Source of the DNA: a virus
Direction: 5' to 3' (one strand)
Length of the DNA: 40,879 nucleotides
IMG/VR virus record: IMGVR_UViG_3300032236_001175
Location: 1 to 40,879 of that record
The translations under genes were made by a program, and so were the position numbers. Under the pieces are notes generated by a model, which had not been told where the DNA came from, did no database searches, and saw only the letters and a program-made list of their open reading frames with translations. Below are positions 23,377 to 30,361 of the stretch, piece after piece (the first letter of the stretch is position 1; each line of letters begins with the position of its first letter).

Positions 23377-23447
23377 TGACACATTGCATCGACTGACGCA
23401 ATAAGTCAGTTAGCGCTTGACAACCTGACGTATTGCGTCAGTAAATA
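23377..23447. promoter_or_regulatory. Divergent early promoter with repressor operators (third cluster)
   Basis: Two copies of the 15-bp operator motif: TGACGCAATAAGTCA (23394-23408) and TGACGTATTGCGTCA (23426-23440). A weaker half-match, TGACACATTGCATCG, lies at 23377-23391. A perfect -35 box TTGACA stands at 23417-23422, three bases before the second operator. A -10 candidate, TAAATA or the overlapping GTAAAT, lies at about 23441-23447. This would drive the rightward membrane operon and possibly the leftward Cys-rich gene. The motif also occurs at 29.4-29.5 and 30.3 kb. Confidence 0.75.
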
Positions 23448-23552
23448 AGGCATGCGCTTAACTATATTCCCCATCTCGCGCCAGTCCTTGGCGCCATCCT
23501 GGCCCTTCTCGCGGCCATGCCCCGCGCCTTTTTGCGTCGCGAGGGCCGATCG

Positions 23553-24200
23553 ATGACGACAGATCACGCGATCCTTCTGCGAGACATCACCACGAACATG
23601 AATAGCGCGCTAGCCGCGCTCGGCTTCGGTTTCATCATGGGCATCTTTGCCCTTCTGATACTCGTAAAGGCGGGCGTGAAGCCGGGCGCCGTTTCAATAT
23701 TGACCGTCGTGCTTGGTGTGGGGGCCCTATGCGTGTGCTTCGCGGCATGGGCGCAGAGCTGGCATTTTCATTTCAGACTCGACTGGAGTGTTGAAGTAAT
23801 CCGAATTCTCGGAATCGTGGCCGCTTGCGCTATCGCCGGAATAATCCTGCTAAGGATCGTAGAACGCGCGCCGCCAGCTGCTCTTTTTGCTTGCCTGGCG
23901 GCGCTGAGTGTTTGCGGTCTTTTGGGCGCGTTGGCAATATGGGCACCTCCTCATAATCTCTTGCTGCTCATCGTGGCGCTTCTGATCATCGCAATATTGG
24001 CGGCCTTGATGATCATCGCATGGGCGTCGGTGAAGATGACGGCCGACCGGCCAATCATCATCCAGCAAGCACCTGACAATCCGCAAATCGAAACCGCAGG
24101 GCGGCGCGAAATCAATCGCGGCCCATTGCTTGCCCTGCCGCGCGGCGCTCGCGCTCTGCAACTTTATCAACAGCGGAACCAATCATGCCAAAAACGATGA
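23553..24200 (+). CDS. Five-segment membrane protein
   Basis: 215 residues with five predicted membrane segments (SALAALGFGFIMGIFALLILV, AVSILTVVLGVGALCVCFAAW, VIRILGIVAACAIAGIILL, AALFACLAALSVCGLLGALAIW, NLLLLIVALLIIAILAALMII). A basic tail of about 50 residues follows, probably cytoplasmic. GAGGG 7 bases before ATG 23553 supports this start over 23517. It is the first gene of an early rightward operon under the 23.4-kb operators and ends with the membrane-bound ATPase, so it may help build a membrane site. Superinfection exclusion is the other usual role. No family recognised. Confidence 0.7.
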   Translation: MTTDHAILLRDITTNMNSALAALGFGFIMGIFALLILVKAGVKPGAVSILTVVLGVGALCVCFAAWAQSWHFHFRLDWSVEVIRILGIVAACAIAGIILLRIVERAPPAALFACLAALSVCGLLGALAIWAPPHNLLLLIVALLIIAILAALMIIAWASVKMTADRPIIIQQAPDNPQIETAGRREINRGPLLALPRGARALQLYQQRNQSCQKR

Positions 24201-24358
24201 CTTATGGCGTTTATCTCTATGCGGCCATTTGCGTCGCGATCGCTATCGGCCTGGAATTGTACAGCGCACCAACGACGGCGCGCGCGTTCCTGGCAATCGC
24301 CCGTGATATTCTGATCGCGCTCGGCGTGACCGTTATCTGGTCCGAATGGCGGCGGTGA
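24185..24358 (+). CDS. Small two-segment membrane protein
   Basis: 57 residues: MPKTMTYGVYLYAAICVAIA begins the first hydrophobic helix, and a second (FLAIARDILIALGVTVIW) follows before a short basic end. The gene starts inside the end of the preceding membrane gene (overlap of 16 bases) and the next gene starts three bases after its stop, which strengthens the call. It could be a holin-like or scaffold protein; function unknown. Confidence 0.6.
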   Translation: MPKTMTYGVYLYAAICVAIAIGLELYSAPTTARAFLAIARDILIALGVTVIWSEWRR

Positions 24359-24361
24359 CGC

Positions 24362-24586
24362 ATGTTCAAAGCTTTAATGCTCGGCCTTCACAAACGGATT
24401 GATCGCTGTGAGCGCGAGCGCCTCAAGCAGGCAAAGCTCAACCGCGAAACACGATTTCAGGAAGTGCGCGTTGAGACACGGAAGGCGGCTGGAAGGCTCG
24501 CGCGCACAAAGGCGCTCGCCGATATGCCTTTGCCAATGCGGAAAAGGCCGAAGACTTCAATGACGAAAAAGGGGAAGCAGAAATGA
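24362..24586 (+). CDS. Small basic helical protein
   Basis: 74 residues, strongly basic (Lys/Arg about one third) and helical: KRIDRCERERLKQAKLNRETR, then KAAGRLARTK, with a basic C-terminus KTSMTKKGKQK. It may bind nucleic acid or acidic membrane. It lies in the early membrane operon and its stop overlaps the next ATG (ATGA). No family recognised. Confidence 0.62.
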   Translation: MFKALMLGLHKRIDRCERERLKQAKLNRETRFQEVRVETRKAAGRLARTKALADMPLPMRKRPKTSMTKKGKQK

Positions 24587-24765
24587 GCGGCAAGCCGTCT
24601 TACACAGAAAAGCAGGCTGCGATCGCGGCGGCAAAGGTAGAAGTCGCGCAGGCCGAAGCCGCGCTCGCGGCGGCGAAACATAAGCTCGCGCAGGCCGAGG
24701 ATATGGGCCTCGGCTCATGGTCCAAGGCAATGCGCGATGCCGATCGCTCGGTTGGCCTTCGATAA
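24583..24765 (+). CDS. Small Ala-rich helical protein
   Basis: 60 residues with an Ala-rich coiled coil (KQAAIAAAKVEVAQAEAALA, about 10-42) and a Gly/Ser tail. It is coupled by overlap to the preceding gene and lies three bases before the ATPase gene. Possibly an adaptor for one of its operon partners; function unknown. Confidence 0.62.
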   Translation: MSGKPSYTEKQAAIAAAKVEVAQAEAALAAAKHKLAQAEDMGLGSWSKAMRDADRSVGLR

Positions 24766-24768
24766 CGC

Positions 24769-26406
24769 ATGAGCGAAGATGCTCGGCCCATTTTTAACTT
24801 TACGCTTGGTCCTGGCAATGTCCTGCCGGAACCGGCGCCCGTTATACCCCCGCCCGCACCTCTTCCACCGAAGCCGACGCGAGACGAGCGCACCGTCGCA
24901 TCGTTGCGCATTAAGAGCATTCGCTGGGGCTGGGGCCTGCCGGCGCTCCTCGCGGGCCTCGCCGTCTGCGCCTGGAATATGCGTTTCGCGGCGTCATGGT
25001 TTCAGGGCGAGGAGGCGGCCGGCGCGGCGGTAGCGGCGCTTGTTTTTACGGGCGCGCTTATCTCTGGCAGGCTCGTGCTCGTCTATCTCGGCGATCGGCG
25101 CGAGGATCTCGTCGAGCCCGTGCGGCTCATGTGGCGCGGCGCTATCGCCTTCGCGGCAATCACAGCAGGCGCTTCGATCTGGCTTTCGCATGCCGGTCTA
25201 CCGCAGTCGCTCGCCTCGAAGCGCGCCGAGCTTTCCGATCTTTATCAGAATGATTATAACGGCCCACGCGGCATGACTTCGCGAGCCTATGTGCGCGAGA
25301 TGCAAAGGCGTGCCGAGCGCATCGTCGATTTACAACATGATGTCAATGACGCGCGTTTCGGCCGCAAGCCCGTTTATTCCGACGCGCAGGTGATTTTGCT
25401 GCAGGCTGGCGCGTCGATCGGCGCGGCCGGCGTCTATGCGCTCCTCATCCTGTTTGCGGCCTATGGCCTCGTGACGGGGCTCGAAACCGAAGCGGCGCTC
25501 GTCGAGCCGAAGCCTGTTTTCGCGCCCGCGCAGATCCTCGAACCGTTGGCCGCGCCAGCCCTTCTCGGCCGCGCCGAGCGCCCGCTCTTCATCATGGCCG
25601 ACGATGTCGTCGAGGAGCCGCTGCGCTGGCTATGGCCCGACGTGATCGAGGAGGGCGAGATCGCCGTGCTGGGTGGCGCGCCTGGCGCTGGCAAGTCGAC
25701 CATTATCACCGACATGGCGGCCGTGACATCGACCGGCCGGGCATGGCCCGATGGATCGCCAGGAAAGCTCGGCTCATGCGTTCTCTTCGAGCTGGAGGAT
25801 CGCCGCGACCGCGTGACAAAACCCCGCCTGCGCGCCGCTGGCGCCAATATGGGCCGCATTGCCTTCGGCGAGCGTATCGACCTTTCGCAGGACATTGAGC
25901 AGCTCGACAACCAGGCGCGCGCCATGGCGGCGAGGGGAATGCCGCCGCTTCGCCTTGTCACCATCTCGCCGATGATCCGTTTTTTCGGCGACAAGGTGGT
26001 CACGAACCGAAACGCCGTGCGCACGCTGATCGAGCCGCTCACGCAATGGGCGCAGGCGCGCGATGTGGCGATCGTCGGTGTGACGCACCTCAAGAGCGGC
26101 GGCGCGTCCGACGACTATGTCGGTAGTAAAGCTTTCTATGAGGCTGCGCGCGCGTCATGGAGCGCAATCGTTAACGATGGCGATCCCGAGCCCGACGATC
26201 GAAAAAAGCAGCGCATCCTATACCCGGCGAAGGTGAGCCATGCGCCCGAGGAGGAGCGCTATTATCGGCTGAAAACCGTTGTCATGCCGGGCGGCCTCAC
26301 TGCTGCGCGCGTCGTCTGGGAAGCCGAAAGCGCCGGTAAATGGTCACCGGCGGTTGGTGGCAAGGCCAGCCGCAAGCGCGTCAACGGCAGTGCGCGCTTC
26401 CACTAG
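24769..26406 (+). CDS. RepA-like RecA-fold ATPase fused to a four-segment membrane anchor
   Basis: 545 residues. A Pro-rich N-terminal tail (about 1-45) is followed by membrane segments at about 54-72, 84-106 and 122-140. A charged helical loop (about 141-206, probably periplasmic) and a fourth segment (207-235) come next. The rest is a RecA-fold ATPase of the RepA/AAA_25 type: Walker A GGAPGAGKST (302-311), a FELEDRRDRV region, a DNA-binding type LVTISPMI, and VAIVGVTHLKSGGASDDYVGSKAF, typical of RepA-like hexameric helicases. The usual members are soluble replicative helicases, so the membrane part is the odd feature. It closes the early membrane operon. It could instead be an ATPase acting on other DNA, but helicase is the first choice. 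Confidence 0.85.
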   Translation: MSEDARPIFNFTLGPGNVLPEPAPVIPPPAPLPPKPTRDERTVASLRIKSIRWGWGLPALLAGLAVCAWNMRFAASWFQGEEAAGAAVAALVFTGALISGRLVLVYLGDRREDLVEPVRLMWRGAIAFAAITAGASIWLSHAGLPQSLASKRAELSDLYQNDYNGPRGMTSRAYVREMQRRAERIVDLQHDVNDARFGRKPVYSDAQVILLQAGASIGAAGVYALLILFAAYGLVTGLETEAALVEPKPVFAPAQILEPLAAPALLGRAERPLFIMADDVVEEPLRWLWPDVIEEGEIAVLGGAPGAGKSTIITDMAAVTSTGRAWPDGSPGKLGSCVLFELEDRRDRVTKPRLRAAGANMGRIAFGERIDLSQDIEQLDNQARAMAARGMPPLRLVTISPMIRFFGDKVVTNRNAVRTLIEPLTQWAQARDVAIVGVTHLKSGGASDDYVGSKAFYEAARASWSAIVNDGDPEPDDRKKQRILYPAKVSHAPEEERYYRLKTVVMPGGLTAARVVWEAESAGKWSPAVGGKASRKRVNGSARFH

Positions 26407-26603: not shown

Positions 26604-26652
26604 TGGAGGCCACGCCCGGAATCGAACCGGGGTACGCGGATTTGCAGTCCGG
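26604..26652 (-). other. attP core: 3' part of a tRNA-Cys gene
   Basis: Read leftward, about 48 bases match the 3' part of a bacterial tRNA-Cys. They comprise the end of the anticodon stem and loop with GCA anticodon (CTGCAAA), a variable loop, a T arm with GGTTCGATTCC, an acceptor end CGTGGCC, the discriminator T and CCA. The 5' half is missing, so this is not a working gene. It lies 91 bases beyond the integrase stop. Tyrosine integrases often use tRNA 3' ends, and this copy would restore the host tRNA gene on integration. Confidence 0.9.
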
Positions 26653-26742
26653 ATTCATTGGCGTCTTTCGTGGTGACATAAGCCTTTGATAGATAAGGTT
26701 TTTGTTTGCAAAAAGAGTATGCCATCATTTTTCGTTGTCCCC

Positions 26743-27864
26743 TCATTTGTCCCCCGAAGCCTTCAATCTCGCGCGTTTTTCGGCGATCTGGATCACATTC
26801 TCGCGGCCCTTCTCAACCGCGCGGTGAAGGTCTTCGACCCTCAAAAATGCGTAGCAGCGTTCGGTGACAACGATCGAGCTATGGCCAAGCCACCGGCTCA
26901 CGATCTCCATGGACGTGCCATAATCCTGAAGAAGACGGCACCCGCAAGTTCGCCTTAGATCGTGCAGCGTCAGCCCTTCTATTCCGGCCTTTCGCGCCGC
27001 CTTCTTCAAGGCTTCCCATACCGTCGGCGTTTCCTTCGAATAGGCTGCGCCGTCGTATGTCGTGAATACGTTCAATCCCTTGCGCTCTGCGAACTTAAGA
27101 TAATCATAAGCGCGATCGACAAGAGGAACGACGCGGCTGGCGCCCTTCGTTCGCGTGCGCTTCTTCTCGACAATGATATGGCCGCGCGCCGGGATGATGT
27201 CTTCATTCGGAACATCGAGCTTAACGTGGCGCCAGCCGAGCGACATCAGCTCGCCGCGCCGCAGGCCCGTGTCGATGTCAAATGCGAAAAGCATGCGGAA
27301 CGTGTCGCCGGAATAACGAAGGAGCGAGTCTTCCTCGTCGCGGCTCAGATAACGCGTGCGGGCCTCCCCTTCTGTCAGGCCCATCTTGCCGCGCGCTTCG
27401 AGGAAGGGCCGCACTGGATTTGTATCGGCCCATTCCCAAAGCTGGGCCAGCACGAAAATCGACGACAAACACGACAGGTCGCGGCGCACGGTGGCAGTCG
27501 CCACATGCTGCCTGCGCTTCCGCTCGAAATCCATGAGTGACGATGCCGTGATCTTGGCAAGCGGCATGCCGCCGAAATGCGCGTGCAGATGTTCGATCGA
27601 GGCCGCGTATCGCTTGGCCGTCTTCTCCGCCAGCGTGCCGAAGCGCTCTTCCGCATAGCGCACCATGGCTTCATCAAACGTGCGAGCGGGCCTCTCCCCC
27701 CACTCTTCGGCCTTCAGGCCGTCGACCCACCGCTGGCCTCTCTCGCGGCCAACTGCCTTATCCGTAGTATCGAGGGATGTTTCGAACTCTTTGCCTTTGC
27801 GCCTCTTGCGCGCATACCAGACATTGCCGCGTTGAAAGAGCCGGAAATCGTCACCTTTGGACAT
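26743..27864 (-). CDS. int: Tyrosine-type integrase
   Basis: 373 residues. The N-terminal arm-binding and SAM-like core-binding domains (about 1-160) begin with FQRGNVWYARKRRKGKEF. The catalytic domain carries Arg202 (TGLRRGEL), His301-x-x-Arg304 (HDLRR), His328 (LGHSS) and Tyr338 (ERCYAF). It recombines attP with the host tRNA-Cys site. The attP core lies just past its stop. The first 151 bases overlap the excisionase gene. Transcription is leftward, probably from the operator-controlled promoter at 29.47 kb. Confidence 0.96.
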   Translation of the reverse strand: MSKGDDFRLFQRGNVWYARKRRKGKEFETSLDTTDKAVGRERGQRWVDGLKAEEWGERPARTFDEAMVRYAEERFGTLAEKTAKRYAASIEHLHAHFGGMPLAKITASSLMDFERKRRQHVATATVRRDLSCLSSIFVLAQLWEWADTNPVRPFLEARGKMGLTEGEARTRYLSRDEEDSLLRYSGDTFRMLFAFDIDTGLRRGELMSLGWRHVKLDVPNEDIIPARGHIIVEKKRTRTKGASRVVPLVDRAYDYLKFAERKGLNVFTTYDGAAYSKETPTVWEALKKAARKAGIEGLTLHDLRRTCGCRLLQDYGTSMEIVSRWLGHSSIVVTERCYAFLRVEDLHRAVEKGRENVIQIAEKRARLKASGDK

Positions 27865-28750: not shown

Positions 28751-29389
28751 CTACGCTCCGATATTGGTCGCGGCGGCTACGCTCAAATCATTGAACTTCT
28801 GAAGAAATTTTTCCTCGGCGCGTTGCCATGTCCATGGAACGATTGGCTTTTTGAGCGGCGGCTCGGTTAGCGTTGTCCATGTCCGCTCACTATCGGCGCA
28901 AATGTCGCGCACTTCCGTGGCGAGCACGGCCATGTCAGCCACCTGAATGAGATCGAGGAAATGCTGCGACGGCCTTTCCGGCAGACGAAGCGCGCGATGA
29001 ATGGTGCGCTGAATGACGGTTTCGATGTCCGCGCGCGCGTTGTAAACGTCGAATCCTTCGAAAACTTTCTTGCATGGCGTGATCTGGTCGCCGATATAGG
29101 CCTCGTGCGCATCATGAAGCAGCCCTAAAAGCTGAACCAATGGCGGGTGCTTTTTCAGGGCCTCGGCGACGTGAACCGAGTGCTGCGCAACCGAATAGAA
29201 ATATTCGCGCCGCGTCGCGCCTCCAAAACGTGTCGTCTTGGCGAGATGATTGGCGATATCTCGAATGTCGACCTGCCTATGATCTTGCTGAAGAAGATCA
29301 AACGCCTTTCCAGACGATAAAAGCATCCATGGCCGCGACTCCTTCGCAGGTTTCGAGGCAACCTCCATTGGTATAATGTCAGCCGTCAT
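28751..29389 (-). CDS. HD-domain phosphohydrolase, 5'-deoxynucleotidase-like
   Basis: 212 residues with HD-superfamily metal ligands: YSVAQHSVHVAEAL, GLLHDAHEAYIGD (the His-Asp pair) and the later VADMAVLATE with Asp. The spacing is like the YfbR/HDDC2 group of deoxynucleoside monophosphate 5'-nucleotidases, which would change nucleotide pools. ATG 29389 has GGGAAAA upstream and is preferred; ATG 29401 is four codons earlier. It is the first gene of the leftward operon and its leader contains the operator at 29409-29423. Confidence 0.85.
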   Translation of the reverse strand: MTADIIPMEVASKPAKESRPWMLLSSGKAFDLLQQDHRQVDIRDIANHLAKTTRFGGATRREYFYSVAQHSVHVAEALKKHPPLVQLLGLLHDAHEAYIGDQITPCKKVFEGFDVYNARADIETVIQRTIHRALRLPERPSQHFLDLIQVADMAVLATEVRDICADSERTWTTLTEPPLKKPIVPWTWQRAEEKFLQKFNDLSVAAATNIGA

Positions 29390-29408
29390 TAATTTTCCCA
29401 TCAAATGT

Positions 29409-29504
29409 TGACGCGGTGCGTCAGCTAAGGCGCTGCCTTCGTGTTCCCCTAAGATGACGCCGCACGTCAGTTTCCGTCAACAGAAAAATTGACGCGACGC
29501 GTCG
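29409..29504 (-). promoter_or_regulatory. Leftward early promoter with three repressor operators
   Basis: Three 15-bp operators: TGACGCGGTGCGTCA (29409-29423, perfect dyad), TGACGCCGCACGTCA (29455-29469) and TGACGCGACGCGTCG (29490-29504). Read leftward, a -35-like TTGACG (29480-29475) is followed after five bases by the middle operator. With a 17-base spacer the -10 would be TCATCT (29457-29452), a poor match. It drives the HD-to-int operon. The 192 bases between this operon and the repressor gene hold nothing else that I can support. Confidence 0.78.
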
Positions 29505-29581: not shown

Positions 29582-30226
29582 CTAGCGCAGAAAAGGAATG
29601 ATCTTTTGTTGTGGATTGCGTCTGGGGAACACTATCACGCCGAGAAGAGAGACGTTGTCGTGTTCGATATTGAGCGGCGGAAGGTTGCGTTTCCGCGAAT
29701 TCGTGGTGAGAAGATACGGCGGAAGCCATTGGCGCACAATGGTTTCCGCGCTCTTGCCGTCGGCGGAATAAAGATTCGCGATCACGACATCGCCGATCGC
29801 GAGGCCCGACATGGCTTCCTTGCCAATATCGATGACCACGGCGTCGCCCGGCATGAGGCCAATTTCTTCCAGGCGGCTATCGGCGATGCGATACCACGAT
29901 TGCGTCGGCTTCAGCGGAAAATGCGCCTCGAAACTGCCCTCCTCCGGCTGGAAGGGGGTGGCTTCCTCCGCAACGCCTCTATAATCGTCGGCGCCGTCGC
30001 CCGCGGCGGAAACAAACACAGCCGGATCGACGTTGAAAATCCTGGCAAAAATCATGCACTGCTCGGCCGTGATGTTCTGGTTGCCGCGCTCTATCTTCGA
30101 TACCGTTTCGGGATTTTTAATCCCGGCCATCGCGGCCAGCTCCTTTTGCGTGAGCGGTCGGCCGCCTTGGCCCTTATAGGACAGACGCAATCTTTTGAGC
30201 ATATCGGCCGGATTAAGCCGTTCCAT
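29582..30226 (-). CDS. Phage repressor: HTH plus LexA/S24-like domain
   Basis: 214 residues from ATG 30226. An XRE-type helix-turn-helix lies in the first 65 (LTQKELAAMAGIKNPETVSKIERG). The C-terminal half is S24/LexA-like (RIADSRLEEIGLMPGDAVVID, later DGKSAETIVRQWLPP). Aligned with LexA, the catalytic Ser position falls on Arg (ADSRLEEIG against GMSMKDIG) and the Lys position in TIVRQW is Arg, so self-cleavage appears lost. The usual Ala-Gly hinge could be AAGD near residue 75. In-frame ATG 30301 would add 25 residues but lies inside an operator-like dyad. It is the best candidate to bind all three operator clusters. Confidence 0.9.
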   Translation of the reverse strand: MERLNPADMLKRLRLSYKGQGGRPLTQKELAAMAGIKNPETVSKIERGNQNITAEQCMIFARIFNVDPAVFVSAAGDGADDYRGVAEEATPFQPEEGSFEAHFPLKPTQSWYRIADSRLEEIGLMPGDAVVIDIGKEAMSGLAIGDVVIANLYSADGKSAETIVRQWLPPYLLTTNSRKRNLPPLNIEHDNVSLLGVIVFPRRNPQQKIIPFLR

Positions 30227-30293
30227 TGCATCATTGTCCACATCTAAAACGTCACCTATGACAGAGCTATTCGATTTACAATGCGGGCGATAG

Positions 30294-30361
30294 AGACGCA
30301 TTCCGTCTAAAATGACGCGATGGGACTTGACGTTTCTGACGGGTTGCGTCAGTCTCTCGGC
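30294..30361 (+). promoter_or_regulatory. Cro-side promoter/operator region
   Basis: TGACGGGTTGCGTCA (30337-30351) is a full operator, placed four bases after TTGACG (30327-30332). A variant dyad, AGACGCATTCCGTCT, lies at 30294-30308, and a half-site TGACGC at 30313. A -10-like CAGTCT at about 30350-30355 predicts transcription starting near 30362, the ATG of the Cro-like gene. The repressor promoter must lie nearby on the other strand; I cannot define it. Confidence 0.72.

Follow-up and report, generated by a model that had tools for sequence, protein, structure and literature searches.

Can a RepA-type ATPase be fixed to the bacterial inner membrane by its own N-terminus, and, if so, what would a phage use it for? 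The locus that raises this question lies in the IMG/VR record IMGVR_UViG_3300032236_001175, a whole viral record of 40,879 bases, referred to here as the window. The window phage is a temperate bacterial virus whose capsid and portal are of the HK97 type and whose tail resembles that of gene-transfer agents (megatron, 1617 bits). A sequence-only reading of one of its genes had proposed a RepA-like ATPase built onto a four-segment membrane anchor, which would place DNA unwinding or another ATP-driven DNA process at the inner membrane. The open reading frame is intact from ATG to stop, and GC content by codon position is similar in its N- and C-terminal halves, as expected for a single coding frame. 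Its parts are the following:

24769-26406, plus strand: membrane-anchored RepA/AAA_25-type ATPase, 545 aa (ORF translation, Pfam, AlphaFold model, structure comparison)
24916-25476, plus strand: predicted anchor with membrane segments at aa 50-68 (weak), 87-105, 120-138 (weak) and 217-235, and a hairpin at aa 148-196 (hydropathy, AlphaFold)
25477-25575, plus strand: disordered linker, aa 237-269 (pLDDT <50)
25576-26331, plus strand: RecA/RepA-type ATPase domain, aa 270-521 (Pfam, AlphaFold model, VIA-align, profile)
25672-25701, plus strand: Walker A GGAPGAGKST, aa 302-311 (sequence, alignment)
25948-25971, plus strand: Walker B strand LRLVTISP, aa 394-401, with Ser400 for Asp (alignments)

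The AAA_25 family (PF13481) matched residues 278-443 with 90.9 bits and E=1.1e-25, above the curated cut-off of 27, and the Walker A motif was found at residues 302-311, exactly where it had been read. The AlphaFold model of the ATPase domain has pLDDT values of ~83-97 across most of residues 281-440. Comparison of this model with the PDB by VIA-align placed three RSF1010 RepA entries on top (Z 21.0, 20.9 and 20.5; rmsd 3.1-3.3 over 216-218 residues; the entry 1g8y at Z 21.0, rmsd 3.1 and 216 residues), followed by DnaB at Z 19.3, and RepA was also the best solved sequence for a profile of 13 relatives (E=4.6e-12). In Foldseek the leading rows were largely RadA, Rad51 and Dmc1 and RepA appeared at rank 44, so that it is VIA-align and the profile search that favour RepA. 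For the modelled domain, the RepA/AAA_25 RecA fold that had been proposed for the C-terminal part is thus supported.

Hydropathy analysis of the N-terminus revealed two strong membrane segments, 87-105 (2.09) and 217-235 (2.14), and two weaker ones, 50-68 (1.25) and 120-138 (1.27). Of 3000 composition-preserving shuffles, 29 had two segments of at least 2.0 and 49 had four of at least 1.2 among residues 1-240. In the AlphaFold model the N-terminus is all helical (38-77, 81-110, 112-141, 148-161, 171-196, 205-236), with the helical hairpin 148-196 sitting between membrane segments 3 and 4. Both methods agree with the proposed order of three segments, a helical loop and a fourth segment, segments 1 and 3 being less certain than 2 and 4. 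The pLDDT of the N-terminus is only ~56-81 in the full-length model, which leaves the details of the anchor unsure; folded by itself it gave nearly the same helices at a pLDDT of 57, and this second model was left out of the fold search. By prediction, then, the RepA-type ATPase carries a membrane anchor. The loop modelled as periplasmic holds 11 Lys and Arg residues, and the orientation does not follow from charge counts; a cytoplasmic side was assumed for the ATPase, since it needs ATP from the cytoplasm. No close relatives of the N-terminus were found in IMG/VR (by short peptide patterns) or in phage and plasmid collections.

A chance or local fusion could produce such an arrangement. A terminase-based search located a kin prophage, IMGVR_UViG_2883839403_000001 (TerL 80% identical), whose gene order matches that of the window phage along the entire genome and which has the lysis genes, primase (59%), D5 helicase (72%) and repressor (46%) in common with it. 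At the corresponding place, following the lysis genes and closing the record, it carries P0004 (514 aa), whose ATPase domain is 41% identical and whose gene is the only one of that accessory region common to the two phages. Hydrophobic segments at 9-27 and 119-137 stand either side of a charged loop with two Cys. P0004 thus begins with a predicted two-segment anchor; after it come a Pro-rich linker, the ATPase domain and, at the C-terminus, a domain of DNA-binding-like character (phrog_10342, E=1.6e-5). A NikA-like ribbon-helix-helix gene (L106:1901-2119, minus strand; 30.1 bits against a cut-off of 27) overlaps the start of P0004 and, together with the DNA-binding-like domain, points to DNA. 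The homologue search called for by the sequence-only reading thus yielded an anchored protein in a syntenic phage, which rules out a chance or local fusion artefact. The anchors of P0004 and of the window ATPase (P0001) show no detectable sequence similarity, which could reflect two separate acquisitions of an anchor or a replacement.

Several other features were seen in the kin phage and in further phages. An array of TTGTAT/ATACAA half-sites lies upstream of the NikA-like gene, and an SNase-type (PF00565) nuclease ORF adjoins P0004 at the extreme end of the kin record (L106:1-381, plus strand). In the kin-phage protein P0005 and in L028:5060-6262, three segments are followed by a coiled loop containing a pair of Cys, then by one more segment and a C-terminal domain. 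Kinship of the window anchor with these proteins was considered and rejected: P0001 and P0005 are without sequence similarity, and the likeness is therefore a mere resemblance in layout. Phage proteins with 3+1 membrane segments, a charged coiled Cys-pair loop and a C-terminal tail are L106:4055-5158 (plus strand), L028:5060-6262 itself (minus strand), where the tail resembles a winged helix, and relatives in L123 and L124; these are possibly membrane-anchored DNA-binding proteins.

A third relative (L110:217-1530) has no membrane segment, and in its phage only a few genes separate it from the terminase, which follows. It forms a clade with the window ATPase and P0004 (support 100/100; 36-41% identity), compared with 25-31% identity of the window ATPase domain to phage and plasmid matches. 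The more distant AAA_25 relatives collected have no anchor. In a genome-contig scan with two short patterns, the matches listed included only ATPase domains from Planctomycetota and Chloroflexota, without N-terminal membrane segments by hydropathy. Searches of IMG/VR and of species genomes used short peptide patterns and reached few relatives; two of the alignments that steered the patterns (A2, A6) contain an artificial second row for motif choice and served to give loci only.

The sequence-only reading overlooked a change at the catalytic site. In the AAA_25 family the catalytic set comprises the Walker A Lys, the motif 1a Glu, the Walker B Asp, the motif 3 His and an Arg finger (PMC8965321), and by alignment the window equivalents are Lys309, Glu343, Ser400, His440 and probably Arg461, the last a candidate assigned by its alignment column. 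All are retained except at Walker B, which reads VTISP and has Ser400 where RepA and AAA_25 carry Asp; the aspartate by which a RepA-like/AAA_25 domain is judged is absent from the window protein. Ser occupies this position in all three clade members, the window ATPase, P0004 and the L110 protein, and the remaining aligned relatives, as well as three found later, have Asp, with no anchor seen before the ATPase domain. The Walker B Asp is treated as strictly conserved in P-loop NTPases (PMC9599734). From its replacement throughout the clade slow hydrolysis would be expected, which would suit a switch or a tether better than a processive helicase; ATP binding and hydrolysis by the Ser form are putative.

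These observations bear on the idea that the protein is a genuine 5'-3' helicase, bound to the inner membrane and unwinding phage DNA there. The RepA fold and the retained Walker A, motif 1a Glu, motif 3 His and finger-region arginine speak for it, but Walker B is Ser across the clade and Asp in the other relatives inspected, and a D5-type helicase and a DnaG-type primase are supplied by the phage itself (Pfam/profile), both conserved in the kin phage and located elsewhere than the ATPase gene, which lies outside the replication module. Unwinding at the membrane, as originally suggested, is consequently the least probable of the functions considered here. Given the separate helicase and primase and the altered Walker B, the window ATPase is also unlikely to be the phage's replicative helicase.

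Between the lysis genes and an attP-like tRNA fragment lies a compact five-gene operon, which the ATPase gene closes:

23517-24200, plus strand: first gene of the operon, 227 aa, 4-6 membrane segments, no family (Pfam, hydropathy)
24185-24358, plus strand: 57-aa protein with a clear membrane segment and a second, weaker one, overlapping the preceding gene
24362-24586, plus strand: 74-aa basic protein, 24 K+R and 7 D+E
24583-24765, plus strand: 60-aa Ala-rich protein, probably helical, ending 3 bases before the ATPase start
26607-26662, minus strand: 3' portion of a tRNA-Cys-like gene, probably the attP core (20 bits, below the Rfam gathering score)
26743-27864, minus strand: tyrosine integrase (profile search)

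The tRNA-Cys-like fragment lies between the operon and the integrase, the position expected of attP, from which we infer that the operon would stand at one end of the prophage. Palindromic sites accompany the operon and the repressor gene:

23394-23408, no strand assigned: operator-like palindrome TGACGCAATAAGTCA upstream of the operon
23426-23440, no strand assigned: operator-like palindrome TGACGTATTGCGTCA, just downstream of a TTGACA box (23417-23422)
29582-30301, minus strand: CI-like repressor (HTH_3), with palindromes alongside at 29409, 29455, 29490, 30294 and 30337

The consensus is TGACG-N5-CGTCA, of which the window holds four exact copies against 0.075 expected, one upstream of the operon 23517-26406 and three around the CI-like repressor gene; near copies occur in the same two places, with few elsewhere. 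The clusters span 23394-23440 on the operon side, and 29409-29504 and 30294-30351 around the repressor gene. Judged by sequence, the palindromes are likely repressor operators, and as they are common to the operon promoter region and the repressor gene, the operon would be under repressor control. In the kin phage TGACG-N5-CGTCA sites are absent and other repeats stand upstream of P0004, so that this control is not conserved. Two further genes were noted in passing: an HD-domain, YfbR-like protein adjoining the repressor (28751-29404, minus strand; 52% conserved in the kin phage) and, among the early phage genes, a protein that begins like a signal peptide and has an outer-membrane beta-barrel match slightly below cut-off (PF13505; 30900-31556, plus strand).

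Position and operon composition are what superinfection exclusion, or another anti-phage function, would lead one to expect. The gene would then be cargo of the lysogenic-conversion type, its membrane part sensing or sitting at the site of phage DNA entry and its ATPase blocking or processing the DNA. It lies between lysis genes and the attP-like site, beside the prophage end in both phages, shares its operon with a multi-spanning membrane protein, is the sole gene of the accessory region common to both phages, and encodes an ATPase probably not needed for replication. However, PADLOC defence models gave no significant match to the ATPase, only generic P-loop hits (best E=0.0023), and repressor-type operators would silence the operon in the lysogen, the state in which exclusion would help most, although exclusion during the lytic phase is possible. 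We consider this function rather unlikely, and place it second after the reading preferred below.

The same position, downstream of the lysis genes and on their strand, could also suit ATP-dependent signalling without DNA, in which the extracytoplasmic hairpin would sense the envelope and the RecA domain relay the signal in a KaiC-like manner, for instance in lysis timing. The loop helices between segments 3 and 4 and VIA-align scores to KaiC close to those of other RecA folds are in keeping with such a role, but the closest fold is that of RepA, and the kin protein has a DNA-binding-like domain and a ribbon-helix-helix partner. Signalling therefore appears improbable, and ranks third, ahead of the helicase.

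We tentatively favour an accessory inner-membrane ATPase that acts in the lytic cycle as a membrane-bound DNA clamp or gate, a reading to which we give somewhat less than an even chance. It draws on the predicted fold and anchor segments and on the observed conserved position, Ser substitution and operator-like sites; orientation, oligomeric state, DNA binding, the tethering role and timing are what we infer. Four, or at least two, membrane helices and the helical hairpin, probably periplasmic, would anchor the protein in the inner membrane, and the flexible linker would hold a cytoplasmic RepA-type RecA domain, giving the general layout of FtsK/VirD4 with an ATPase of the RepA/DnaB class. Once the repressor releases the operon, the ATPase may assemble at the membrane as a ring or filament, bind DNA while ATP is bound, and hold or gate at the membrane either the phage's own replicating genome or incoming DNA. 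The Ser400 form would hydrolyze ATP slowly and, instead of unwinding processively, serve as a switch or tether.

How does such a protein compare with known systems? FtsK/SpoIIIE and the VirD4/TraD coupling proteins are membrane-anchored DNA ATPases and phage phi29 has p1 and p16.7, so that to see no precedent for such an arrangement is too strong. We know of no ATPase domain in p1 or p16.7. They too are phage proteins, and they link phage DNA replication to the membrane (PMC4974454). RSF1010 RepA, a hexameric replicative helicase, and AAA_25 proteins share with the window protein the RecA-type fold, as its best structural match, and the Walker A, Glu, His and Arg motifs, whereas RepA has no membrane anchor and keeps the Walker B Asp. 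Phage prim-pol/AAA_25 replication proteins (such as Microbacterium phage primase/helicase; Lactococcus phage F13 gp46, PMC8965321) have a homologous ATPase domain, but with primase or prim-pol N-termini and, where checked, without anchor and with the Walker B Asp kept. With FtsK/SpoIIIE the window protein shares, in layout only, N-terminal membrane segments, a flexible linker and a RecA-like ATPase, to which the kin protein adds its C-terminal DNA-binding-like domain; VirD4/TraD/TrwB proteins resemble it in two membrane segments with a loop, a RecA-like ATPase and, as in the kin phage, a ribbon-helix-helix partner. Both, however, are of a different ATPase class. No Pfam match to FtsK_SpoIIIE or T4SS-DNA_transf was found for the window ATPase up to E=1, so that it is not a member of those families, and no conjugation genes were found near it.

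Among open-licence papers no membrane-anchored RepA/AAA_25 ATPase was found described, and what seems new is an FtsK/VirD4-like layout on a RepA/AAA_25-class ATPase in a phage. Membrane-bound bacterial DNA motors are known mostly from the FtsK/HerA class; if a second class of RecA-type ATPases is fixed to the membrane in phages, there would be another route for handling DNA there, and a defined protein with which to ask whether a phage's genome is tethered, or its rivals are blocked, at the membrane. The Walker B Ser across a clade of this divergence makes clamp versus motor biochemically testable. In its most far-reaching and distinctly doubtful form, the proposal is that of a RepA-class counterpart of FtsK/VirD4, independent of the FtsK/HerA class: an anchored, phage-encoded ring ATPase gating or moving DNA at the inner membrane, a motor which the conserved Walker B Ser would turn into an ATP-controlled clamp.
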